Part shown: one piece after another, positions 2,515 through 45,524 of the stretch
How positions within the stretch are numbered: the first letter of the stretch is position 1
Layout: every line of letters starts with the position of its first letter
Source of the DNA: a virus
Length of the DNA: 48,049 nucleotides
IMG/VR virus record: IMGVR_UViG_3300044492_000048
Coordinates: 1 to 48,049 of that record
Reading direction: 5' to 3' (one strand)
Made by a program: the position numbers and the translations under genes
The notes under the pieces: model-generated
Told to the model about the DNA's origin: nothing
The model's input: only the letters and a program-made list of their open reading frames with translations
The model's database searches: none

Positions 2515-4013
2515 TGAGCCTGGCGCAATACGAAACGCATCTCTCGGTCGAGCAGCGTTTTCGTATTGCGAAGGCGCGCAGCAAGAGGTTGCTGACGGCG
2601 AAGCTGTTCAACGAAGCGGACCATCCTCGCGACGAGCAGGGCCGGTGGACCGACGCCGGCGGCAGTGAGGACCGCGTCTCGACAACGGTGCCGTCGGCGA
2701 AAAAGCAGGGCTTCGATCCGCATACGCGGCAAGACCTGGCGCCGACTTACGACACGTTCAAGCAGGCGATGGAAAATCCAAAGTACGCCGCCGGCGTCGA
2801 GAAATTGATGGACCGCTACGGCAAGTCGTTCGCCCGCATCCCGAAGGGCACGGCCGCCGAGAAGGCCGAGGCCTTCGTTTCGCATGCAACGTCGAACCTG
2901 ACGGCGCTCTACAACGCGCAAGATCCTGAGCTGCGCGGCCGATCGGCGACCTGGTATCGAGGCGCCCGCAAGATCGCGGACGATTTTTCCAAGCAGTACG
3001 GCGTCTCGCCGAGGGCCGTTGCCGGCGTCCTGGCGTCACTGTCACCGCAGCGCGACTGGGACCAGAACGTCGAGATGGCGACGCGCGTGCTCGACATCGC
3101 AGTGGCAAAAGGTGCCATCCCGATTGAAGGTGAGAAGGCCGCCAAGACAAAGCAATCGATGCTCGACTACGCCAAGACGCAGCTCAAAGATGCCGATAAG
3201 ATCGAGGCCAAGATCCCCGAAGGCGCCGATCCGAAAGATCCGGCGGTCAGGGGCCAGCTCCTCAAGGTCAAGAACCGTCGGGCGATGGCCGCCAAGATCA
3301 CCAAGATGGCCGGCACGTTCGAAGGCAAGAAGCTGTCGGAGCTGCCAAGCCTGGCTGAGCAGGCGATCGTGCTGCGTTTCTACGATGAGGGCAACGCCGA
3401 ACCAGGCCGCGCCTATGCGATCTGGAATCCTGAAGGCACCAAGTCCGGCGAGGTCGCGATGGCCGGTGAGGGAGACAAGCGGAAGGCGCGGCTATCTGGT
3501 TGGGGCGGCTTCGGCATGACGGAGGGCGCGCTCAGCATCCTGGCCAATGACAGCCGCGAGAACATTTCGGCGCAGCTCGGCGACAACCACAAGGTCCGTA
3601 ATTTCTACAACAACATCATCTCGCCTGAGTACGGCCAGGACACGACGATCGATACCCATGCGATCGCAGCCGCCCTGCTACGGCCGCTCGGCGGCGGCGC
3701 CGTCGAGGTCAAGGAAGGCCTGGGGATGTCCGGCCCCAAAAATGCCGAGACTGGTTTAAAGGCCCTCTACGCCTTATATTCCGAGGCCTACAGGCGGGCC
3801 GCCAAGGATGCCGGCATTCTCCCCCGCGAGATGCAGAGCACGACCTGGGAAGCTCTGAGGGGCTTGTTCAGCCCTGAGGAAAAGCGTGACGCCGCGATCG
3901 AGAAAAGCGTCAGCGATACCTGGAAGCGGTACAAAGAAGGGAAGATCGATCTTGCCGACGCCCAACGAGAAATCCTTGCTCGAGGAATCCGGCCCCCGCG
4001 TTGGGCAAAGTGA
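2514..4013 (+). CDS. DUF7178-like protein with phage cargo motif; HhH-GPD-like features
   Basis: This protein has 499 residues. Near residue 36 it carries DHPRDEQGRWTDAGG, a motif seen at the junction of head-associated phage proteins and variable effector-like domains. The rest resembles DUF7178: GVLASLSPQRDWDQN (about 170-184), KVRNFYNNI, then TIDTHAIAAAL (about 380-390) and a late STTWEALRG. The order 'helix-hairpin-like GVLASLSP … IDTHA' recalls HhH-GPD DNA glycosylases, where an Asp in a V/IDTH motif is catalytic. That comparison is mine and unproven. It is encoded among head genes between the decoration gene and a Cys/Trp-motif gene. It may be a virion-packaged protein delivered with the DNA, a head assembly factor, or a DNA-processing enzyme. 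Confidence 0.8.
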   Translation: MSLAQYETHLSVEQRFRIAKARSKRLLTAKLFNEADHPRDEQGRWTDAGGSEDRVSTTVPSAKKQGFDPHTRQDLAPTYDTFKQAMENPKYAAGVEKLMDRYGKSFARIPKGTAAEKAEAFVSHATSNLTALYNAQDPELRGRSATWYRGARKIADDFSKQYGVSPRAVAGVLASLSPQRDWDQNVEMATRVLDIAVAKGAIPIEGEKAAKTKQSMLDYAKTQLKDADKIEAKIPEGADPKDPAVRGQLLKVKNRRAMAAKITKMAGTFEGKKLSELPSLAEQAIVLRFYDEGNAEPGRAYAIWNPEGTKSGEVAMAGEGDKRKARLSGWGGFGMTEGALSILANDSRENISAQLGDNHKVRNFYNNIISPEYGQDTTIDTHAIAAALLRPLGGGAVEVKEGLGMSGPKNAETGLKALYALYSEAYRRAAKDAGILPREMQSTTWEALRGLFSPEEKRDAAIEKSVSDTWKRYKEGKIDLADAQREILARGIRPPRWAK

Positions 4014-6383: not shown

Positions 6384-8504
6384 ATGTCTAAAAACGCTCA
6401 GAAAATCAGGGAGATAGACATCTCCCCGGATGAGGATGAGGACCGCGCGAGCTTCATGGACCGCTGCCTTCAGGAGACTGACGGCGACGAATTCTCCTGC
6501 TCGGTCGCCTGGGATGAGCGCAGCGCCAAGCAGATTGTGCGCAAGGTTCACGTCACCGAAGGCGCCGGCATGACGTTCGTTCTGTCGGATGCGACGCCTG
6601 ATCGGATGGGCGACATCATCGACGCCGGCGGATGGGATCTGAAAAACTTCAGCCGCAACCCTGTCGCGCTGTTCAATCACAACGCCAATTTCCCGATCGG
6701 CAAGTGGATCAATCTCCGCGTCGAGAAGGGCGAGCTTCGCGGTGAGCTGAAGTTGGCGCCGGCCGGCACTTCCGATCGCATCGATGAGATCCGGCGCCTG
6801 GTCGACGCCGATATTCTGCGCGCGGTCTCGGTGGGCTTCCTGCCCAGGAGATCCGAACCGATTTCAAAAAACGGAGACGGCTATCGTTTCCTCGAGACGG
6901 AGCTGATCGAGACCTCCCTGGTTTCGATCCCCGCGAACCCGAACGCATTGGCGATTGCAAAATCGCTGAACATCTCCCGCGACACCGTCGCACTGGTCTT
7001 TGCCGGGAAAGGCAACGAGAAAGACCAGCGCATCGAGCGTCGCGGTTTATCCGGCGGGCATGCCGATCTGAAAACCGAATCCAAGAGGAAAACCACCATG
7101 AGTGGCCCCCTAACTAAACGTATCGAAGCAACTCAACAGCGCATCGTTGAGCTGAAGGATAAGCTGAGCGCACATCTCGAGGCGGTCGATGATGAGAACG
7201 TCACCGAAGCCGATCTCGCGACAACTCAAGAGTTGAATTCGCGCATCAAGGCTCAGACCGATATGCTCAAGAGCCTGGAAGAGTCCGAGACTGGACTCGC
7301 CAAAACATCATCGGAAGATGGCACTGGCACCGTCGCCCGTTCGTCGTCGGTCGCGCGTTCTAGCGCACGTCCGTTCAATATGCCGGCAAAGAAGATCGAG
7401 CCGCTCGAGTTTCTGGTTCGTGCCGGTACGCTGAAGGTTCTGACCAAGCATCCGGATTTCGCGGGCCAGACGATCGATCAGATCCGCGAGAAGATCTACG
7501 GCACCGACGAGGCTACCAAGGTTGTCACCGATCTCACGGTGAAGGCCGCAACGGCGCCGGCGATGACTGGCGTTGCCGGCTGGGCCGCTGAGTTGGTTCA
7601 ACAGATCAATGCCGATCTGATGCCGTCTCTCCTGCCGTCGTCGGTTTATCCGTCGCTGTCCGCGATGGGCCTCAAGCTCAGCTTCGGGCGCAACGGCAAG
7701 ATCAACGTGCCGACCCGCGCGGCGACGCCGACGGTTGCCGGCTCGTTCGTCGGTGAAGGCGCTCCGATCCCGGTTCGTCAGGCCGCATTCACGTCGACCT
7801 CTATGGTCCCGAAGAAAATGGCCGTCATCACGACCTGGACCCGTGAGATGGATGAGCACAGCGTGCCCGCGATCGAAGGCTTGCTGCGCAATGCGATCCA
7901 GGAAGATACCCAGATCGCGATCGATACCATCTTGCTCGATGCCAACCCGCCGACGAACATTCGTCCGGCTGGTTTGCGCAACGGCGTTGTCGGTGAGACC
8001 CCGACCGCAGGCGGCGGCTTCAATGCCCTCGTCGGCGATCTCAAGAACCTGAGCGGCAAGATCCTGACGGCAACCAACGGCAACGTGCGCTCGATGGTTT
8101 TCATCATGAACCCGCAGCAGGCGCTGTCGATCGGCTTCATCCAGCCGCCGGTCCCTGGTGGTCTCTTCCCGTTCGCGACGGACATCAACAACAACCGTCT
8201 GATGGGCTATCCGGTCATCAAGTCGGGGACGGTGCCGCTCGGCACGGTGCTCTGCCTCGATGCAGCGGATTACGTCTCGATCACGGGTGACACCCCGCGC
8301 TTTGAGATCAGCGACCAGGCGACCCTGCACATGGAAGATACTTCGCCGCAGCACATCGGCACCGCCGGCACTCCTGGCGTTGTCGCAGCTCCTGCGGTCT
8401 CGATGTTCCAGACCGACAGCCTCGCGCTGCGTCTCATCTTGCCGATGAACTGGACGATGCGCCGCAGTGGCGTCGTTTCGTTCGTTGCGGGCGTTACTTG
8501 GTAA
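6384..8504 (+). CDS. Prohead protease fused to HK97-fold major capsid protein
   Basis: This 706-residue fusion has four parts. (1) An N-terminal segment with FMDRC … CSVAWDE (Cys28, Cys39, Trp43). (2) An HK97 prohead protease (S78) domain, about 55-215, with catalytic His99 in ALFNHN and Ser near 150 in RAVSVGF. (3) A coiled-coil scaffold/delta region from about 239 (KRIEATQQRIVELKDKL). (4) The HK97 capsid fold from about 330, including VPKKMAVITTWTREM and the FIMNPQQAL strand. Protease and capsid are often separate genes; here they share one frame. An internal ATG with a good ribosome site at 7098 could supply capsid without protease. AGAGG precedes the first ATG. Confidence 0.95.
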   Translation: MSKNAQKIREIDISPDEDEDRASFMDRCLQETDGDEFSCSVAWDERSAKQIVRKVHVTEGAGMTFVLSDATPDRMGDIIDAGGWDLKNFSRNPVALFNHNANFPIGKWINLRVEKGELRGELKLAPAGTSDRIDEIRRLVDADILRAVSVGFLPRRSEPISKNGDGYRFLETELIETSLVSIPANPNALAIAKSLNISRDTVALVFAGKGNEKDQRIERRGLSGGHADLKTESKRKTTMSGPLTKRIEATQQRIVELKDKLSAHLEAVDDENVTEADLATTQELNSRIKAQTDMLKSLEESETGLAKTSSEDGTGTVARSSSVARSSARPFNMPAKKIEPLEFLVRAGTLKVLTKHPDFAGQTIDQIREKIYGTDEATKVVTDLTVKAATAPAMTGVAGWAAELVQQINADLMPSLLPSSVYPSLSAMGLKLSFGRNGKINVPTRAATPTVAGSFVGEGAPIPVRQAAFTSTSMVPKKMAVITTWTREMDEHSVPAIEGLLRNAIQEDTQIAIDTILLDANPPTNIRPAGLRNGVVGETPTAGGGFNALVGDLKNLSGKILTATNGNVRSMVFIMNPQQALSIGFIQPPVPGGLFPFATDINNNRLMGYPVIKSGTVPLGTVLCLDAADYVSITGDTPRFEISDQATLHMEDTSPQHIGTAGTPGVVAAPAVSMFQTDSLALRLILPMNWTMRRSGVVSFVAGVTW
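7083..7100 (+). promoter_or_regulatory. Internal Shine-Dalgarno and ATG for a capsid-only product
   Basis: AAGAGGA at 7083-7089 lies 8 nt before an in-frame ATG at 7098-7100, exactly at the boundary between the protease domain and the scaffold/capsid part (residue 239). Initiation here would give a 468-residue delta-capsid polypeptide and allow the capsid to be made in excess over the protease. The site is seen; its use is inferred. Confidence 0.55.
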
Positions 8505-17370: not shown

Positions 17371-20300
17371 GTTTGAGGAACTCCGGCTTACGGTGTCCCT
17401 CGTAGATAATGCATCTACGGGGTTGCAACGGCTACGCGCGGAAATCGGTCAGCTCACAACAGTCACAAATTCGTTAATCACCGGCGTCAAAGACGGCACG
17501 ACGGCGCTAACGAATTTCGGGAACGCATCGCAGACGGCGGCGCCTCAGATCCGGTCTGTGAATGCCAGGTTGCGCGAGCTGGAACGTGCGGCATCCGATA
17601 CGACCCGCGCGCTCGCCAACATGGCCACGACGGCGCAGCAAGGCCTGGCCGGCATGCCGCAGATGGCGCTGTCGTTCTGGGATGCCTCGCGCGGTGTCAG
17701 TACGTTGGCGGCCGGCATGTCGTCCGTTGGGCCGGCTGCGAGTACGGCGGTCCTGGCGCTCGGCGGCATAGCAGTAGGCGTCCTGGCCATTGGCGCCGCC
17801 GTCATAGCTTACGGCGTCTCGGCGTTTCGCATGGCCAAGGAGATGGACGAGCTCAACCGCGTATCGAAAACGCTGGGCATGAGCTTCGGCGAGCTGAAGA
17901 GCGCGCAAGACCAGGCGGCGTCAGTTGGCGTAGCTTCTGAAGCGGTGGTCCGAAATTTCCAAGGCATCCAACAAGCGCAGCTCGATCTCTTCAAGGCCAA
18001 CTCGCAGCTAAAGCAGAAGCTGTTGGCCGAAGGCGTCAGCGAGCAATGGATCATCGAGTTCGCGAAGGCCGACCCGACTGCCGCTTCCAACATGATCGGG
18101 GAGTTCGCCAAGCGGCTAGAGAAGTCGATGATCGACGCCGGCGCCATGCCGTCCCTGGCGCATTCGATGGCGAAGGAATTTGGCGCGAATTTCAAAGTCG
18201 ACATCGATAATCTGCCGAAGCTCACGCCGATCACGCCTGAAGCCGCCGCCGACATGGAGCGGATCAAGGTTCTCAGTGCGGAGGTTATGGACATCTGGAA
18301 TCCGCTCAGCGTGAAGCTCGAGCGGATTACGTTGGAGGGCTTGAAGGTTGGGTTGCCGCTGCTCGTCAAGGTGCTCGAGCATTCAGACGGCATCATCAGG
18401 CAGATCAAGCTCGAGATGGATACGGTCGCGGCGGTTTTCAAAGCGATCAAGTTCACCTTCAACATGATCATGCATCCGATCGATACGTTCACGAAGTTGA
18501 ACAACGATCAGGATACCAAAGACAAAATAGTCGATGCGCTCGATCCGGCAATCAGGCGCCATCTGGGCCAGTTGCGGCCAGGCGAGAAGGGGTACGTTCC
18601 GCCGACGGCGCCTGCAACGGCGCCAGCGCCAGCGGCGCCGGCAACGGCGGCGCCCCTTGGTTTTATGGGCGGCGGTTCAAGTCGCAGCCGCCAGAATGAT
18701 CTTCCGTCATCAGGCGATCGGAGAGAGGAAAGCGAGGCGCATCGCGAGGCCTGGGCTAGCTTCCGTCGATCGGAAAATATCGAGGACCGCAGGGATCAGG
18801 TCTACGACGAAAGCGCCACCAAGACCGGCGCACTGACGGCGCAGCTCGCACGGCTGAACGCATTTTTCGATCGTAGGGAAGCCGAAGCGATCGGCGGCGC
18901 CGGTGGTCCTGGTGGCGGCGGCATGGGCCTGTTTAGTGGCGGCACTGGCGGCGGCGGCGGTCTTGGCGGTTACGGCGGCATCACTGGCGGCGGTGGGTAT
19001 AGCGGCGGCGGTGGAAATTACGGCGGCAGTAGCCGAAGCGGCAGCGGTGGCGGCAATAGCAGCGGCAGCGGTCGTGACGACTCGACGCCGCCCAGCGGCG
19101 GTAACAACGCAAAAGATTCCAGCGGCAAGTTCGTTGACCCCGGAGAGCTGAAAGGCTCAGGCCCGCACGGCAAGCTGAACAGTGATGCGCTCTACAAGAA
19201 TTTGTATAACAACGTCCCTGATGAGCTGATCGGGAAAGTCCCGAAGGATGGTGCGCGCTTCGGTATCACGACTGGCTCGCGCGAGGAGTGGGCGAAGCTG
19301 CAATATAAGCTGGCCCAACAGGAGAGCAGCGGCTCGACTACGCCAGGTTCTGAAGCTGGTCATACCGGGACCGCCGGCCTCTACCAGATGGAAGCGAAAG
19401 ACTTGGAGAACTGGGGCGGCAACGGCGCCGTCACCGATCCGCACGCTCAGATCAGGGCGATGAACAACGTCTTTCGGAAGAACATCATTCGAGACGACGC
19501 GATTGGTGGCCAGGATAGTTGGCCGGGGCGATCGAACTACGGAGCAGGCGCATACTTCGGCCCGCTTCGCGATGCCGGCGTCAATCGCGGCGTCATTGCA
19601 AAGCATGAAAGAGAAGGCGCGGCCGTAGCCGCGCGAAATCAGGCGCCGGCGGCGACAGATACGCAGACCGCAGGAGCTGGCGCTATCACCGGCACGTCGA
19701 CAACGGCCGGCAAGAACCCCGATGGTTCTGAGTTTCCGGCGAGGGTGCAGGCTGTCGGTGGTGGCGATCCAAGTGCCTTCATTACGCATCACACCGGCGG
19801 CGGTGGCGGCGTCGCAGGCGTGCAGAATACACTAAGGCAGCGCGGTCTCGGCGTTCAGTATGTGATGGATCAAAACGGCAACGTCGTTGCGACGGGCGGT
19901 CCTGGCGCATCGCACATGAGGAATGCCGGCATCTACGGTAGAGGCGGCGTTAAGGTTGCGGACTTTCCGGAGGGAGATCCCAGGCGTGGTCTCTCGAATG
20001 CGAACGTCGTCGGCATGGAGATCATCGCCAGTGACGATCCGCACGTCAGACAAGTTCAGGCGGAATCGTATGCGAAGTTCATGGCCGCTCGATACCCGAC
20101 AACTCGTATTTTTGGGCACGGCGAAGTCAACGTAGGTCACAAAGAAAAAGATGAGGGGATAACGGCGAAGTTAGCGGCGCTGAAGCTTCGCGAGCTGAAT
20201 GCGCAGGCGGCGGCGAGGGCAGCAACAAATCCGGTTGCGACTAATTCCAACATTCCGGAGCTGAAGCAGGATAACGAAAAGAATAAAGGCCGGGGGCCGA

Positions 20301-37257: not shown

Positions 37258-37375
37258 GATTAATACCAGGCTGACCGTGCTGGAGGGCGCGACCAAGAAG
37301 AACGAAAGCAGCATCGAGCGCATTGTCGATGTTATGACCAAGGAGCTGCACGTCTCACCAACGAGGGATCGATGA
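37088..37375 (+). CDS. Single-pass membrane protein, candidate holin or spanin-like
   Basis: This 95-residue protein starts at GTG with AGGAGG 5-6 nt upstream. One hydrophobic segment (about 15-37: LMYFLIAQAIFLGGLAFSGW) is followed by a charged coiled coil (TRLTVLEGATKKNESSIERI) and a short basic tail. Position just before the endolysin gene suggests a lysis role, either a holin of the single-span class or a membrane anchor. Its stop overlaps the endolysin ATG (ATGATC). Confidence 0.65.
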   Translation: MVEIARTWIRENSTLMYFLIAQAIFLGGLAFSGWGYMVRLETRVHTLETRGSPHLAEINTRLTVLEGATKKNESSIERIVDVMTKELHVSPTRDR

Positions 37376-38418
37376 TCACGCTTCGCGGAAAGTGTAGTTG
37401 GTTTGGCGGCCCCGACGATACCGGGGTCTCTCCTGATGAAGGGCTTGCCTTCTACTATTCGGTAGATGACGCGCCTGAACTATTCCTCGATCAGCAACCG
37501 CCAGGCACGACTGGCCTGGCGCGTCGGCTCGATCCATCAAAATTATACGTCGCCTGTCGCTGGGATTACGACATTACGCCGAAGGACGTTCTGCCTTTGA
37601 TGCTGGTGACGGTGGTCAACGCCAGGACCGGCGAGAGTGCGCTCGCGGTGCCGGCAGATTGGGGACCGCATATCGACACCGACAGATGCGCCGACATAAG
37701 TCCTGGTCTCATGACCATGCTGGGACTAACGACAGACGACGAGGTCATCATCGAGTACGAACCGATCGGAGGCTCCGTCATGCCGTACAATAAAATCTGC
37801 ATCTCTTCAGGTCACGGGCTCAAAGTCCCTGGCGCCTGCGGAATCCTGATCGAGGTCGATGAGGCGATCCGCGTCATGGATCATCTCGCGGACGAGCTGC
37901 GGGCGCGCGGCGTCGATGTCGAGACGTTTACAGATTCAGTGAGCACCAGCCAGTCGGAGAATTTGAACCGCATCACCGACTGGCATAATTCGCGCGTGCA
38001 GGATCTGGCGGTTTCGATCCACTTCAACGCCTACGAACAGGTCGAGCATGCGATGGGCACTGAGGTGCTTTACGTCACGCAAGGCACGCTCGCAGGCAAG
38101 CTGTCGGCCGCCATCGCGTCGTGCGGCTTCATCGACCGGGGTCCGAAGAAGAGGACCGATCTGCATTTTCTGAATGAGACTGAGGCCAAGGCCGTGCTCA
38201 TCGAGGTCTGCTTTGTGGACAGCGAGGAGGATGCGGAGCTGTACGGCGAGACCTTCCATGAGATCTGCGAGGCGCTGGCGGATGAGCTGGGCGGCGTCAT
38301 GACCGGCGAGACGGAGCCGCCGGAAGTCACTGAGCCACCGCCTTACGTCGTGCCCCGCATCGACATCGAGGTCGAGGGCGAAGTGATCATCACCGTGAAC
38401 GGCCAACAACTCACATAG
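37372..38418 (+). CDS. Endolysin: double-psi beta-barrel domain fused to N-acetylmuramoyl-L-alanine amidase
   Basis: This protein has 348 residues. The N-terminal about 125 resemble a RlpA/expansin-like double-psi barrel (KCSWFGGPDDTGVSPDEGLAF … DWGPHIDTDRCADISPG). Residues about 140-300 are an amidase_3 domain with the zinc ligands in order: SSGHG (His), LIEVDEAI (Glu), SIHFNA (His) and catalytic LIEVCFVDSEED (Glu). It cuts the amide bond between N-acetylmuramic acid and L-alanine, releasing progeny. No signal peptide is visible, so it needs the holin candidates beside it. The C-terminus (IDIEVEGEVIITVNGQQLT) is a short beta tail. Confidence 0.92.
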   Translation: MITLRGKCSWFGGPDDTGVSPDEGLAFYYSVDDAPELFLDQQPPGTTGLARRLDPSKLYVACRWDYDITPKDVLPLMLVTVVNARTGESALAVPADWGPHIDTDRCADISPGLMTMLGLTTDDEVIIEYEPIGGSVMPYNKICISSGHGLKVPGACGILIEVDEAIRVMDHLADELRARGVDVETFTDSVSTSQSENLNRITDWHNSRVQDLAVSIHFNAYEQVEHAMGTEVLYVTQGTLAGKLSAAIASCGFIDRGPKKRTDLHFLNETEAKAVLIEVCFVDSEEDAELYGETFHEICEALADELGGVMTGETEPPEVTEPPPYVVPRIDIEVEGEVIITVNGQQLT

Positions 38419-39904: not shown

Positions 39905-40239
39905 TTTGGTTTCCAGTTCTTGAGGATCTCAAAGGGTGACGGAGACGAAGGATCGCCGATTGTCATGACGGTGGCGCCTGGCTTGATCCGGTTGGTCTCT
40001 TCGTTGTGGCGTCCGCTATTGCACTGATAGCAGGCGGCGACGATGTTGCCGGCGATCGTCAGGCCGCCGGCGTAGACCGGCACCAGGTGATCAGCGGTCA
40101 TCAGGCGCGGCTCGTCGGCCGGCGTCGTCTTGACCAGGATCATCGGCGTCTGGCACCAGTAGCAGAGGCCGCCCTGGGCACGGCTGGCCCTTTGCGCCAG
40201 GCGCCGTCCGATGTGATGGTCGCGCCGGCGCAGGCTCAT
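39886..40239 (-). CDS. HNH endonuclease (McrA-type small nuclease)
   Basis: This 117-residue protein contains GGLCYWCQTPM (first CxxC), TADHLVPVYAGGLTIAGNIVAACYQCNSGRHNEE (DH…N…H core and second CxxC), the ββα-metal HNH fold with a zinc knuckle. Such small HNH proteins in phages are linked to packaging or to mobile activity. Here it is well away from terminase and in the accessory arm, so its substrate is unclear. Its start codon is provided by one of the junction elements (see repeat entry). Confidence 0.9.
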   Translation of the reverse strand: MSLRRRDHHIGRRLAQRASRAQGGLCYWCQTPMILVKTTPADEPRLMTADHLVPVYAGGLTIAGNIVAACYQCNSGRHNEETNRIKPGATVMTIGDPSSPSPFEILKNWKPKCEPIF

Positions 40240-40454
40240 CGGTCCTGCTCCGGTGCGAGGGCGGCGCTGGCGCGAAACAGATCACCCAATGTTATCCTGT
40301 GTCGCGCCGAACTAGAATAAAGCGTGCTGTACTCTGGTTCATCGTCCTCCGCGCATTCCGCAGCTTTGGCGAAGGGACGCAGCGCCGCTTCCAGTTGTTC
40401 GACGCGGGCAGTGAGACGGACTATCTCTGCGTTATGCTGTTCAAAATCGCTCAT
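40236..40454 (-). CDS. Small coiled-coil protein ending in ALAPEQD
   Basis: This 72-residue protein begins MSDFEQHNAEIVRLTARVEQLEAALR, a short coiled coil like the LEALREI helix of its neighbours, and ends RASAALAPEQDR. The last codons are part of the junction element that also gives the HNH gene its ribosome site. It overlaps both neighbours by four bases. It is probably a paralogue of the genes at 40451, 42520 and 42720. Function is unknown. Confidence 0.65.
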   Translation of the reverse strand: MSDFEQHNAEIVRLTARVEQLEAALRPFAKAAECAEDDEPEYSTLYSSSARHRITLGDLFRASAALAPEQDR

Positions 40455-40756
40455 TTGTCCTGCTCCGGTGCGAGGGCTGCGCGGGCGATGTCAGATGGGA
40501 CTAGCTGTCGATGACTGTCAGCCCATTTCTCAATCTCCCGCAGCGCCGCCTCCAGCGCCTCGATGCGATCGGCTTGGTCAAGAATACGGTCAGCCTGACT
40601 GTCGATGATGTCTTGCAGCTTACGCAGTTCAGCAGTAGCGACCAAAGCTCGCATTTCCCGCTCATAGAATTGCTCTCGCGTAATTCCAAGGTCTTGGATT
40701 TCCTTCGGATGAATACGCCAGAAACGCTTGGCAAGCGCCGCAATCGTGTCGCTCAT
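40451..40756 (-). CDS. Coiled-coil protein with RIEALEAALREI and ALAPEQDK
   Basis: This is a 101-residue protein. A helical N-terminus (KEIQDLGITREQFYEREM) leads to the shared core DRIEALEAALREIEKW and then SDIARAALAPEQDK. The core and end are nearly identical to those of the proteins at 42520 and 42720, so they are paralogues or share a recombined cassette end. GAGG precedes the ATG; a 106-nt non-coding stretch lies upstream. Confidence 0.7.
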   Translation of the reverse strand: MSDTIAALAKRFWRIHPKEIQDLGITREQFYEREMRALVATAELRKLQDIIDSQADRILDQADRIEALEAALREIEKWADSHRQLVPSDIARAALAPEQDK

Positions 40757-40818
40757 CTGTAACCTCAGTTTGTAAGTGGGTGCCCTAGCTGCTCAGTTGG
40801 GTGCACACCAAAGGTTGG

Positions 40819-40854
40819 CTATGCGGCTAGGGCGAGGCGTGCCAACGTCGCCAT
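40819..40854 (-). other. Possible 11-codon leader ORF in the 40757-40862 gap
   Basis: Between the stop at 40863 and the start at 40756 lies a 106-nt gap. Its only open feature is ATG GCG ACG … GCA TAG, encoding MATLARLALAA, 14 nt after a GGAG on the minus strand. The gap also contains the 8-bp palindromes GTGTGCAC-like and GGGTGCCC. The gap is probably an intergenic leader or a degraded gene end; nothing else is seen in it. Confidence 0.2.
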
Positions 40855-40862
40855 CTCTAGTT

Positions 40863-41165
40863 TCACTCCTCCAGTAATTTGTCGACAACGGCGCCGACGA
40901 TCGATGACGGCTCGCCGCGTTGGTCGCGCGTCACCGCCGTTTTCAGGTTCTCCAACGGCACGCCGTATTGCAGCGCCAACGACATCAGTATGGCGCCGTC
41001 GCGAGCGATCGCTTCGGCGGTCGTGCCGGATTTTTCGAAGTTGATAAACACTTCGCCGATCGCGCCGCTCGGATACCGGCCGATCGTGACGACGTAGAGC
41101 ATGCCGTTATAGTCGACGGTGAACGTCTCGGCATGCCGGCGCATCGGCAGAGGATTGCGGTTCAT
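40863..41165 (-). CDS. TSCPD-domain protein
   Basis: This 100-residue protein starts MNRNPLPMRRHAETFTVDYN and contains YVVTIGRYPSGAIGEVFINF, then AEAIARDGAILMSLALQYGVPLENLK and SSIVGAVVDKLL. This is the TSCPD domain known from the C-terminus of vitamin B12-type ribonucleotide reductases and from stand-alone phage proteins. The stand-alone copies have no established role. I start at the ATG 41165, which overlaps the upstream stop (ATGA); the frame extends to 41228. Confidence 0.85.
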   Translation of the reverse strand: MNRNPLPMRRHAETFTVDYNGMLYVVTIGRYPSGAIGEVFINFEKSGTTAEAIARDGAILMSLALQYGVPLENLKTAVTRDQRGEPSSIVGAVVDKLLEE

Positions 41166-41365
41166 CGGATTGCTTCCCATTCTCCACACCAGTAGGTTTC
41201 TTCCGGCCACACCGTTGGCCATTCCCATTGCGTCGCGGCATTGTCGTCATCGGTGATACTCACCGATCGCGGCGCATGTCGCCGACACTGTAACGGGTCG
41301 TCATCATCGATAGGAGTATCGTATTGCGGTCGACTGAACCGGCAGTTCTTGCAGCTCTCTTGCAC
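41162..41365 (-). CDS. Small Cys4 zinc-binding protein
   Basis: This 67-residue protein starts at GTG after CAGGAG. It reads M-QESCKNCRFSRPQYD … LQCRRHAPRSV … WPTVWPEETYWCGEWE, with two CxxC-like groups (CKNC and C…C) forming one zinc site and a Trp-rich C-terminus. This Cys/Trp pattern is widespread among small phage proteins without function. It overlaps the next gene (ATGA). Confidence 0.75.
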   Translation of the reverse strand: MQESCKNCRFSRPQYDTPIDDDDPLQCRRHAPRSVSITDDDNAATQWEWPTVWPEETYWCGEWEAIR

Positions 41366-41385
41366 GGCTTACTCCTGCAAAATCA

Positions 41386-41411
41386 GGGGGCGCACCCTGA
41401 GATGCGCCCCC
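41386..41411 (-). terminator. Terminator downstream of the PEP-CTERM gene
   Basis: GGGGGCGCA and TGCGCCCCC form a perfect 9-bp stem with an 8-nt loop. On the minus strand TGATTTTG follows, giving a short T tract. It isolates the PEP-CTERM gene from the rest of the arm, consistent with an independently expressed moron. Confidence 0.8.
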
Positions 41412-41467
41412 GTCATTTCATCCAGCCAGCGCGACCACTAAGCTAGACGAAACTCCGCGTTCACTTT

Positions 41468-42184
41468 TCAGGCCAGACGGAACGACAGACCCTCACGACG
41501 GCGCTTACGCATCGCCAGACCGCCAACACCAAGGAAGCCCGCGATCATCATCACCCACGTCGAGGCTTCCGGCACCGCCGCTACTTGCGGGATCGGAGCA
41601 GCGTCGATGCGGAAATGCTCGAAATCATTGATCATGCCAGTGGCACCGAGGAACAGATCGATGTCGGTGATGACTTCGCCGTTCGCGACGGAGAAATCGA
41701 ACCCGTTCTGCTGGTTGCCGTTGCCGAGATCGTAGCCGCCGCCGCCAAGGCCTGCGATGCCGCCGGCGAGGTTGGTGAAGTTGAACGTCTCGGTATTGCC
41801 GTTCGCATCCACAGCCGACACCCTGAAGAACACGTCGCCGGTGCCCTTCAGAGAAAAGATGTCGCGCGTGGTGCCGAGCTGGACCGTGTTGGTGGCGTCG
41901 AACACGGTGATGTCCAGATCGCGGGTGTTGACGATCTTGATATCCTGGCCGTTGGCGGCGCCGGTGAAGCCGGTGGTCGCGGACACGTCGAAGAACCGCA
42001 CCACTTCGTTGTTCTGGCCGTTGAGATGGCCGAGGATCAAGCGGGAGTTGGTTGGATCAATGCCGGTGAACACGACGTTGTTGCCGGTGCCGGGAATGCC
42101 GGTGGTGTTGAGGAACACGTCGGCCTTGACCGGGGCCGCCGCTAACACAATTAGAGCCGTAGTCGCCAATAAAATTTTTCTCAT
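41468..42184 (-). CDS. Secreted PEP-CTERM protein (phage moron)
   Basis: This 238-residue protein has an N-terminal signal peptide (MRKILLATTALIVLAAAP, cleavage near VKADV). The Gly/Thr-rich beta-structured middle includes GGGGYDLGNGNQQNGFDFSV. The C-terminus reads VPEASTWVMMIAGFLGVGGL with a following RKRRR. PEP-motif (here PEA), hydrophobic segment and Arg cluster are the PEP-CTERM sorting signal read by exosortases of the host. This is the first such signal I see in a phage head-to-tail context of this kind. It is encoded on its own with a terminator behind it. Confidence 0.88.
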   Translation of the reverse strand: MRKILLATTALIVLAAAPVKADVFLNTTGIPGTGNNVVFTGIDPTNSRLILGHLNGQNNEVVRFFDVSATTGFTGAANGQDIKIVNTRDLDITVFDATNTVQLGTTRDIFSLKGTGDVFFRVSAVDANGNTETFNFTNLAGGIAGLGGGGYDLGNGNQQNGFDFSVANGEVITDIDLFLGATGMINDFEHFRIDAAPIPQVAAVPEASTWVMMIAGFLGVGGLAMRKRRREGLSFRLA

Positions 42185-42243
42185 ATTAGTAGTCCTCTTC
42201 TTCTGATCAGGAAGTTGGTGCGGAATGCACCGCGAAGCGTCAC
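42181..42243 (-). other. Possible 20-codon leader between small genes
   Basis: GTG 42243 to TGA 42181 on the minus strand encodes MTLRGAFRTNFLIRRRGLLI. Its start overlaps the stop of a 9-codon frame (42269-42240) and its stop overlaps the PEP-CTERM ATG (ATGA). Basic/hydrophobic and very short, it may simply carry ribosomes to the PEP-CTERM start. Confidence 0.25.
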
Positions 42244-42265
42244 GATGTGGCGCTTGGCGGTGAAC

Positions 42266-42523
42266 TCATTTCTCCTCATGCCTGCGTTTCATCAACGGAT
42301 GGTTCATTTTGTCCTGCTCCGGTGGTGGGGGTGGCAATGGCTGCCAATGAGTTGGGTTTGCGAAGCTCCCACTGCTGTCACAGCGCCAAGCGTATTCGTC
42401 CTGCTGGGGTTCTCCTGGATTGCCGTAACGCTGCCGGCCGCAGTAGATCGGAACGACTGTTCCAGCGACGGCCAGCAATACAGAAACAGCCTTCGGCGCG
42501 GTCGCAATCGGCTGCCAACTCAT
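42266..42523 (-). CDS. DUF551-like small phage protein
   Basis: This 85-residue protein begins MSWQPIATAPKAVSVLLAVA and contains YGNPGEPQQDEYAWRCDSS and PTHWQPLPPPPPEQDK, the standard 'W.PI.TAP…THWQPLPPPP' pattern of small phage proteins. It does not stop at PEQDK as its neighbours do. One extra A in the junction element moves ATG into frame, and 13 residues more are added (MNHPLMKRRHEEK). It may be a normal variant or a recombination scar. Confidence 0.75.
   Translation of the reverse strand: MSWQPIATAPKAVSVLLAVAGTVVPIYCGRQRYGNPGEPQQDEYAWRCDSSGSFANPTHWQPLPPPPPEQDKMNHPLMKRRHEEK
42305..42324. repeat. Junction element copy with one inserted A (copy C)
   Basis: Plus strand CATTTTGTCCTGCTCCGGTG, one T longer than the other copies. 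On the minus strand the AAATG becomes AAAATG, so the upstream frame reads through the ATG instead of stopping. Confidence 0.7.
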
Positions 42524-42723
42524 TTGTCCTGCTCCGGTGCGAGAGCGTTGCGGGCGATGTCGCCAGCTATCTGGTCGCCGTTGTCATCCCATTCCGCGAT
42601 TTCCCGCAGCGCATTCTCCAGCGTCTCGATGCGGGCGGCGGCATCAAGGTAAAGCTGCACATCTCCGGTGATAGTTTCATTCGGCGTGTGCCAAGCGCGC
42701 AGCCGCTTCACAAGCTCGCTCAT
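42520..42723 (-). CDS. Small coiled-coil protein with ALAPEQDK end
   Basis: This is a 67-residue protein. The N-terminus MSELVKRLRAWHTPNETITG is its own; the middle AARIETLENALREIAEWDDN and end IARNALAPEQDK are shared with the proteins at 40451 and 42720. ATGA overlaps on both sides. The shared module suggests a family of small multimerising adaptors with variable N-termini. Function is unknown. Confidence 0.7.
   Translation of the reverse strand: MSELVKRLRAWHTPNETITGDVQLYLDAAARIETLENALREIAEWDDNGDQIAGDIARNALAPEQDK
42521..42543. repeat. Gene-junction repeat, copies A-F
   Basis: Consensus on the plus strand CATTTGTCCTGCTCCGGTG followed by CGAGGGC. Copies begin at 40237 (A, CATCGGTCC variant), 40452 (B), 42305 (C, one base longer), 42521 (D), 42721 (E, CATTTCTCTTG variant) and 42900 (F, CCGCTGCCC at the end). 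On the minus strand each gives G(C)(A/C)CCGGAGCAGGACAAATGA. The GGAGCAGGAC is the Shine-Dalgarno of the next gene, ATGA is stop plus start, and the same bases encode APEQDK. Only exact or near-exact repeats outside coding frames would be non-functional; here function in three ways is built into the same bases. Confidence 0.85.
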
Positions 42724-42902
42724 TTCTCTTGCTCCGGTGCGAGGGCGTGTTGAGCAATCAGCTTGTAAACTTGCGCCCGATGCCCGCCGTAGTCGGGGTC
42801 ATTGGCAATCTCCCGCAGCGCCGCCTCCAGCGCCTCAATGCGGGCATTGGCGATATCTCTGTCCTTGTTCGCAGCGGCTATAATTTCAGTAAGCACATTC
42901 AT
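42720..42902 (-). CDS. Small coiled-coil protein ending in ALAPEQEK
   Basis: This 60-residue protein starts MNVLTEIIAAANKDRDIANA, followed by RIEALEAALREIAND and IAQHALAPEQEK. I start at ATG 42902, which is provided by junction copy F with its GGAG site. The frame also extends to an ATG at 42962 that overlaps the upstream stop, so a 20-residue longer form is possible. Copy F itself is left over from an earlier cassette whose start is gone (the frame reads …SSFRAAEQDK but has no start codon). Same family as 40451 and 42520. Confidence 0.65.
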   Translation of the reverse strand: MNVLTEIIAAANKDRDIANARIEALEAALREIANDPDYGGHRAQVYKLIAQHALAPEQEK

Positions 42903-42958
42903 TTGTCCTGCTCCGCTGCCCTGAAGCTGCTGCATCGCCATTGTCTGCGGATAGTCTC

Positions 42959-43207
42959 TCATGCCCTGCCCTTCATTTCAGGCTGGCCTTCGAACCGCGC
43001 GATCACTTCCTTCATCATCACGACGATGTCTTTTCGGGCGGCGTTGGAGATGTAGTTCGTCCGCGCACCTTCCGGCCCGTCGAACGGCGCGATCAGCAAT
43101 ACGAACGCAGTCTGCTTGGGGCGGTCTGGATCGTTGAAGGCTTCATCCAACACTTCGGCAATGGCCTTCATCTGGCCCCAGAATTTCGGGTCGATTGGTT
43201 CGCTCAT
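42959..43207 (-). CDS. Small phage protein (ARTNYISN … ARFEGQPE type)
   Basis: This 82-residue protein starts MSEPIDPKFWGQMKAIAEVL and has a strand TAFVLLIAPFDGPEGARTNY followed by SNAARKDIVVMMKEVIARFEGQPE. I recognise this pattern from small proteins of alphaproteobacterial phages; no function is known. I use the ATG at 43207, which overlaps the upstream stop (ATGA). Confidence 0.75.
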   Translation of the reverse strand: MSEPIDPKFWGQMKAIAEVLDEAFNDPDRPKQTAFVLLIAPFDGPEGARTNYISNAARKDIVVMMKEVIARFEGQPEMKGRA

Positions 43208-44674: not shown

Positions 44675-44940
44675 TGAACGTGATCATGCTGACGATCGAC
44701 ACCAGCAAGACGCTCACCGAGAGCTGGGAAAAGATCTCGCTCGAGATGCTTAGGCAAGGCGCCGGCAAAGCTCAAGTTGATGCGATGCAGTCGGCGTTCT
44801 TCCTGGGCGTCGTCCACGTCTACGCGCGCCTGGACACCAAGGTCAACGACAGTGACACTTTTTACGACGTGATGGATGAGCTGATGGATGAGATCTCATG
44901 CGTTCGCGCTGAAGATCTGCCGGTGGCGGGGAATGCATGA
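44671..44940 (+). CDS. Hypothetical small protein
   Basis: This 89-residue protein starts MMNVIMLTIDTSKTLTESWE at an ATG overlapping the previous stop (ATGATG). The frame extends to 44596 but lies inside the previous gene. Helical and moderately acidic, with a possible short phage motif (SAFFLGVVHVYARLDTKVND). Ends by overlapping the methyltransferase ATG. Function is unknown. Confidence 0.7.
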   Translation: MMNVIMLTIDTSKTLTESWEKISLEMLRQGAGKAQVDAMQSAFFLGVVHVYARLDTKVNDSDTFYDVMDELMDEISCVRAEDLPVAGNA

Positions 44941-45524
44941 GGAACGGCGTCTGGACGCATTCATCGGAGAAGGCCAAGGCTTACCCGCGCGAGGATGAAC
45001 ACTTCGTTGAGCCGATCTGGGTCAGCCAGCGGCTGTTCGAGGAAGAGAAGTTCGCCGGTGAGATCTACGATCCCGCCTGCGGCTTCGGCCGCATCGTTGA
45101 GAGTGCCCTGGCGGTTGGTATCGAGGCTTATGGGTCCGACTTGGTCGATCGTGGGTTTACCGGCATCCGCCGGGATTTTCTCCGCCAGATCGCACCAGGC
45201 CGGCACGATAACATCGTGACGAACCCGCCCTTTGATCAGCTCGAGCAGTTCACCAGGCACGCCGTCGAGCGATCGCGGCGCAAGACGGCGGTGATCTCGC
45301 CGACGGCCAGGCTCAACGCCGCCAGGTGGCTGAAGGATCTACCGCTGCGCCGGATCTGGTTGCTGACGCCTCGTCCGTCGATGCCGCCTGGCCACGTTGT
45401 GAAGAGCGGGGGAAAGGTCACCGGCGGCAAGCAGGACTATTGCTGGCTGATATTCGAGCGTGGATATGTCGGCCAGCCAGAGCTAGACTGGCTGCACCGA
45501 GATGGAGACAAGACATGTTCGTAG
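44937..45524 (+). CDS. DNA adenine methyltransferase-like protein
   Basis: This is a 195-residue protein. Motif I is YDPACGFGRIVE (about 43-54) and motif IV is TNPPFDQLEQF (about 94-104), both close to the N6-adenine or N4-cytosine enzyme patterns. The N-terminus (YPREDEHFVEPIW) and the C-terminal half (LTPRPSMPPGHVV, GGKQDYCWLIFERG) match small phage-type enzymes with a short target-recognition part. Substrate and sequence are unknown. It is probably a solitary methyltransferase that masks phage DNA from restriction; no cognate nuclease is visible here. Confidence 0.85.
   Translation: MRNGVWTHSSEKAKAYPREDEHFVEPIWVSQRLFEEEKFAGEIYDPACGFGRIVESALAVGIEAYGSDLVDRGFTGIRRDFLRQIAPGRHDNIVTNPPFDQLEQFTRHAVERSRRKTAVISPTARLNAARWLKDLPLRRIWLLTPRPSMPPGHVVKSGGKVTGGKQDYCWLIFERGYVGQPELDWLHRDGDKTCS

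Follow-up and report, generated by a model that had tools for sequence, protein, structure and literature searches.

Results

The PEP-CTERM gene of the window

The window, by which we mean the whole stretch of 48,049 nucleotides analyzed here, represents a 48-kb contractile-tailed phage with terminase, portal, capsid/protease, sheath, tape measure, baseplate, and endolysin genes, in which neither a tyrosine integrase nor an exosortase was found. Its late genes end with an endolysin gene on the plus strand (37372 to 38418; PHROG 435), which is convergent with a minus-strand CDS (41468 to 42184, ATG start) for an exported, PEP-CTERM-tailed protein of 238 amino acids, as judged from the open reading frame, its PF07589 match, and the family to which it belongs. 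The protein begins with MRKILLATTALIVLAAAPVKA and ends with VPEASTWVMMIAGFLGVGGLAMRKRRR, the longer C-terminal stretch being VPEASTWVMMIAGFLGVGGLAMRKRRREGLSFRLA. An earlier note on this DNA had proposed a phage-encoded PEP-CTERM protein between 41386 and 42184, which is exactly the span from the terminator through the start codon, and the phage gene context, the structural model, and the Pfam score given below all bear this out.

Residues 1 to 21 (42122 to 42184, minus strand; MRKILLATTALIVLAAAPVKA) form a signal peptide, as the note had said, and are taken as a Sec signal by eye and from an N-terminal helix at residues 2 to 14 in an AlphaFold2 model. The body, residues 22 to 195 (41600 to 42121, minus strand; family A2), had been called beta-rich, and the model (pLDDT 85.9) indeed contains 12 strands flanked by N- and C-terminal helices. 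The sorting tail, residues 204 to 231 (41492 to 41575, minus strand), consists of VPEASTW, a transmembrane helix, and RKRRR. The proposal that this is an exosortase signal agrees with a helix at residues 207 to 231, with the exchanges of tail class on the body tree described below, and with the Pfam PEP-CTERM model PF07589, which scores residues 203 to 229 at 21.2 bits (gathering threshold, 20.7); NF035944, the NCBIfam model for PEPxxWA-CTERM, gives 28.8 bits (E 8e-7), below its cutoff of 35, and no family outside PEP-CTERM matched the tail better. Downstream lies the gene's own intrinsic terminator (41411 to 41386, minus strand), also foreseen in the note, with a stem of 11 pairs followed by TGATTTTG in a region whose 101 nt fold at -49.3 kcal/mol (z -5.8). 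A search for a sigma-70 promoter consensus for the window gene found none.

The body model is a jelly-roll beta sandwich between the signal helix and the tail helix, and in a PDB comparison its nearest solved folds were carbohydrate-binding modules, with Z scores up to 7.8. CBM29, CBM22, and CBM61 resemble it in fold over about 120 residues (Z of 7.8 or less), whereas sequence identity is about 10% and the shared arrangement is a common one. The best score, 7.8 for CBM29, is at a level that models lacking a clear match typically reach, and CBM-like Z scores under 8 may reflect merely a common fold. On this structural prediction, the displayed domain is probably a jelly-roll and perhaps binds glycans.

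Several other features of the neighborhood were observed. Five small minus-strand ORFs flank the gene within 40236 to 42962 (40236 to 40454, 40451 to 40756, 42266 to 42523, 42520 to 42723, and 42720 to 42962); they share repeats, most having a core like IEALEAALREIA and ending in ALAPEQDK or a close form, and six copies of a 26-nt repeat, each lying over a small-ORF stop codon and the next overlapping start, resemble a repeated translational-coupling unit. A DNA methyltransferase gene (44937 to 45524, plus strand) lies beside the PEP-CTERM region, and 14 loci have methyltransferase homologs close to the family gene, almost all encoded on the other strand.

A conserved structured leader

Immediately upstream of the gene, and missed by the earlier note, is a structured leader (42193 to 42283, minus strand), which our covariance model R1 matches with 83.1 bits. 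This stretch of about 90 nt is conserved among otherwise unrelated phages and has a fixed order, a hairpin of variable sequence being followed by the invariant GGTGCATTCCGCACC and then by a palindrome of the CTGATCAG type with the Shine-Dalgarno sequence attached. In the window, the invariant 17-mer hairpin GCGGTGCATTCCGCACC occupies 42217 to 42233, and the Shine-Dalgarno region AGAAGAGGA lies after the CTGATCAG palindrome at 42192 to 42202 (both minus strand). A 12-pair helix in the alignment of 22 leaders has 95.1% of its cells paired and compensatory changes at 8 pairs; its covariation score of 0.489 compares with 0.172 in shuffled alignments, none of 500 of which scored as high, and with 0.093 or less when the helix was slid. 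Since the 3' side of this helix overlaps the invariant hairpin, helix and hairpin are alternatives. Rfam 15 gave no family match in 41300 to 42600 up to an E value of 1.

The leader is tied to tailed genes rather than to any one body. An exact motif scan of IMG/VR found 25 stretches, 24 of which directly precede the start of such a gene (two of these genes end at a contig edge before the tail; L141 is the lone exception), and the bodies behind them fall into at least six unrelated groups. With the covariance model, the leader is also located ahead of the second cassette in L006 and in L012, of L011, L086, L020, L017, and L018, and of the PEPxxW copy of L027, and all of the model's same-strand matches with E below 0.001 lie immediately 5' of a tailed gene. 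When genes with different bodies are compared, mean identity is 81% for leaders, 69% for signal sequences, and 67% for tails, and the bodies are at background (61% versus 60% when shuffled). The leader associates with PEPxxW tails, L128 being the single exception, and inspection by eye found no counterpart of it in the VPGP class described below; searched against plasmids, it gave matches at chance level only, and against phages none.

From its conservation and covariation, we regard the leader as a candidate new regulatory RNA, and it could also act as DNA instead. An attC-like recombination site is disfavored as the meaning of the hairpin because the distance from the hairpin to the start codon is 20 to 35 nt and no further copy was seen downstream of the gene. 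The sigma-54 spacing described for bacterial PEP-CTERM genes (PMC1569441) does not fit the motif either, which by eye reads GG-N8-GC, not N10.

Distribution, mobility, and selection

The earlier note had suggested a search for such genes in other phages, and successively broader IMG/VR profiles confirmed 10, 88, and then 133 loci, so that at least 133 contigs of IMG/VR bear the window-body family; tblastn found no relatives in 50,697 records of isolated phages. The contigs that bear it are phages, three terminase families together covering 33 of the 50 tested. Frequent neighbors are DNA polymerase, helicase, exonuclease, RecT, or endolysin genes, and in 20 of 23 loci the family gene and the endolysin cluster are on opposite strands. 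A tyrosine integrase occurs in 6 of 51 family contigs and is lacking in 45, the window among them; an exosortase was found in none of the 51. Two scans of 84,980 bacterial and archaeal species genomes yielded 54 and 48 peptide-pattern matches, respectively, and zero relatives of the body; because such scans detect only copies that keep the most conserved peptides of the profile, a diverged bacterial source is possible. The note's description of a host-type surface protein thus stands for the tail, whereas the body is absent from these pattern scans.

The family gene moves alone between phages. Between the window and 20.7 kb fetched around L002, the sole DNA match is the family gene (91.4% over 41534 to 42234), and this match stops within the tail; L003 and L004 likewise align to the window solely at the family gene. 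The reverse is seen in L086, the most similar phage overall, which is 72 to 86% identical to the window on both sides of the gene and whose own copy of it gives merely a partial match of 67%. With its own terminator and a presence that is independent of its neighbors (L002 and L003), the window gene has the properties of a moron.

The body is under purifying selection. Window and L002 differ in it by 1 nonsynonymous and 25 synonymous changes (dN/dS of 0.011), the ratio is 0.065 between the window and L003 and 0.04 to 0.2 for other pairs, and long invariant stretches are kept across phages in the alignment. Rather than a stray host gene, the window gene is a member of a family that had escaped notice and that travels by itself among unrelated phages of soil and water.

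Exchange of sorting tails

One and the same body carries three tail classes, with the patterns PEPxxW...GF...RKR, VPGPxxGAGLPGL...RRRR, and VPLPA-like. In 108 loci, about 63 tails are VPGP (with L108), 41 are PEPxxW, and 4 are VPLPA-like, the class of VPLPA-CTERM (TIGR03370), from which the window protein's tail differs. On a tree of 72 rows built from the body only, tail class changes at least 12 times, and well-supported branches force 6 changes for PEPxxW and 6 for VPGP. NCBIfam and Pfam recognize PEPxxW tails in about 20 of 60 members scanned, and TIGR03370 matches 1 of these 60 (E 5.4e-5); neither library has a model of the VPGP tail, and the libraries searched hold no described enzyme for it. 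The VPGPxxGAGLPGL-TM-RRRR tail (A3; for example, L024, L051, and L084) is common in these phages and may be an undescribed sorting signal.

Near-identical tails occur on diverged bodies. DNA identity between L003 and L107 is 87% in the tail and 67% in the body, and between the window and L027 it is 81% and 69%, respectively; the reverse holds for the window and L002, with 95% in the body and 75% in the tail. Composite AVPGPVAG-VPEPxTW tails in L018, L021, and L088 look like a PEPxxW tail that was apparently joined into a VPGP tail. Exchange extends to cassette relatives with other bodies, some of which pass NF035944 (L121, 42.1 bits; L136, 39.5; L123, 35.2; cutoff, 35) and TIGR02595. The FxDxF PEP-CTERM family (NF038126; cutoff, 50), whose body differs from that of the window, recognizes the second-cassette bodies of L006 (78.4 bits) and L136 (61.1 bits), both with PEPxxW tails, and matches L070 over the body, where the tail is VPGP. 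Body D has the same leader in L126 and L128, and its tail is PEPxxW in the former and VPGP in the latter.

Within a single contig, tails agree. After removal of near-copies, there were 16 contigs in which the family gene is accompanied by another tailed ORF whose body is unrelated, and the two tails are of one class in every case: PEPxxW in L006, L012, L015, and L056; VPLPA in L059; and VPGP in L037, L039, L040, L055, L057, L061, L070, L075, L081, L084, and L109. Random pairing with the same class counts gives such agreement with a permutation probability of 4.6e-5, a value that kinship between contigs makes less extreme in truth. The exception is an 80.6-kb contig (L027/G013) with two copies of the family body itself, about 10 kb apart (L111 at 7657 to 8487, minus strand, and 17469 to 18551, plus strand), whose tails are VPGP and PEPxxW and of which only the PEPxxW copy has the leader; it breaks a simple matching of one tail class to one host, unless the phage hedges or its host has both systems. 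One of the 16, the 94,958-base L040 contig (IMGVR_UViG_3300021082_000020), contains a pair of similar terminase genes (at 3943 and 52292, a separation of about 48 kb) and is possibly a composite of two phages or a duplicated genome.

As to hosts, the closest tails in named records, with E near 0.1, are those of PEPxxWA proteins on plasmids of Polymorphobacter, Sphingomonas, and Novosphingobium (Sphingomonadales). The Novosphingobium plasmid, on which the tagged gene adjoins a glucuronosyltransferase annotated as WelK, also encodes an exosortase (E 8.5e-58). These matches are compatible with an alphaproteobacterial host and are no proof of one, and the terminase, sheath, and polymerase neighbors point to mixed, distant hosts. 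VPGP-type tails may be common in Bradyrhizobium and its kin; neither the VPGP tail nor an FxDxF body with a VPGP tail matched plasmids. Tails searched against isolated phages gave no match, queries of 34 to 37 residues being weak ones.

Discussion

Our results lead us to propose, with a probability of roughly 0.6, that the window carries one allele of a modular cassette for surface display, and that the tail of this cassette fits the sorting enzyme which the host itself supplies. Such a cassette would consist of a structured 5' leader with a Sec signal, an exchangeable body, a C-terminal sorting tail of the host's class, and its own terminator, and during infection the phage would produce the protein from its own short transcript. 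Because Sec export, membrane retention by the tail, exosortase processing, and delivery to the surface or to exopolysaccharide are established PEP-CTERM biology (PMC1569441, PMC12188702), we infer that Sec would export the protein, that the tail would hold it in the inner membrane, and that the host exosortase would cut the tail and hand the body to the surface or to exopolysaccharide. The fold and the context lead us to suppose that the jelly-roll body would there bind something on the surface, a glycan being the likeliest partner, and that the bound body would mask or alter the receptor layer or the matrix, to the benefit of the phage, blocking rivals and also the phage's own progeny at cells already infected. 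A specific role in superinfection or adsorption is a more tentative proposal, for which we would put the odds somewhat below even.

Other readings of the same gene weigh the body, the tail, and the transcript differently. That the protein is expressed mainly from a prophage and changes biofilm or surface to the advantage of the lysogen would suit its short transcript with its own leader and terminator on the strand opposite the late genes, as well as the tyrosine integrases in 6 of 51 contigs, but the other 45, including the window, are without one, many relatives sit beside DNA polymerase and helicase genes, and no copy appeared in the 84,980 host genomes, where prophages would show; we consider such lysogenic conversion unlikely, if the least so of the alternatives. 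The tail might instead be a plain membrane anchor for a protein that acts in the periplasm, on entry of superinfecting DNA or on lysis, with no exosortase processing. For this, one transmembrane helix of any kind followed by basic residues would be enough, and the gene lies near endolysin in many loci, yet the conserved PEP and VPGP motifs, the parallel exchange of tails, and their agreement within contigs are then left unexplained, which makes an anchor rather improbable.

Were the tail everything and the body of little matter, the protein could serve as an exosortase decoy, a flood of substrate that keeps the host's own PEP-CTERM proteins for matrix and adhesion undisplayed. Agreement of tail class within contigs and the sharing of the same tails by several unrelated bodies would both be expected of a decoy; strong purifying selection on the body (dN/dS of 0.011 to 0.2) and its long invariant stretches across phages are unexpected of filler, so that we find this idea quite improbable. 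Chance acquisition of a single host gene, or a viral contig into which host DNA was wrongly assembled, would be in keeping with PEP-CTERM genes being typical of bacteria (PMC1569441) and with FxDxF being a bacterial family. The 133 viral contigs, the three terminase families in 33 of 50, and the failure of the pattern scans to find the body in 84,980 bacterial species genomes speak against such an origin, which is already refuted for the body and which we regard as highly improbable overall.

The display cassette resembles known systems in part. Like the substrates of PEP-CTERM/exosortase systems (PF07589, TIGR02595, and NF035944), the family has a signal peptide, a short motif, a transmembrane helix, and a basic end in terminal position; unlike them, it is phage encoded, its body was not found in bacterial genomes, and the same body bears other tail classes. 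By analogy, phage morons and envelope superinfection-exclusion proteins may be seen as alike in their independent short transcript, movement as a single gene, and export, and a host exosortase tag with exchangeable classes is not described for them in the papers searched. Full-text searches, in which co-mentions were judged mostly by title and abstract, returned no paper on phage-encoded PEP-CTERM proteins or on phage use of an exosortase; a paper that mentions both PEP-CTERM and phage deals with host genes, and in the literature so covered exosortase tags appear solely as a bacterial trait. Sorting tag, accessory phage gene, and structured leader are each of a known kind; their combination into exchangeable cassettes appears to be new.

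More broadly, there is about an even chance that a common pool of display cassettes serves the phages of environmental bacteria, each cassette having a host-class RNA leader, a signal, a body out of many, and a tail of one of several host classes, and that the cassettes are kept and re-tailored when a phage takes a new host. If so, tail class would read out the sorting system of the host, and the two classes in L027 would be a hedge across two hosts or sorting systems. Our findings suggest that phages give infected cells a new surface decoration. If this is true, exosortase sorting would be a new battleground between phage and host, tail class would give a sequence clue to the hosts of uncultivated phages, and these natural tag swaps would help to find pairs of enzyme and tag, that of the VPGPxxGAGLPG tail included.
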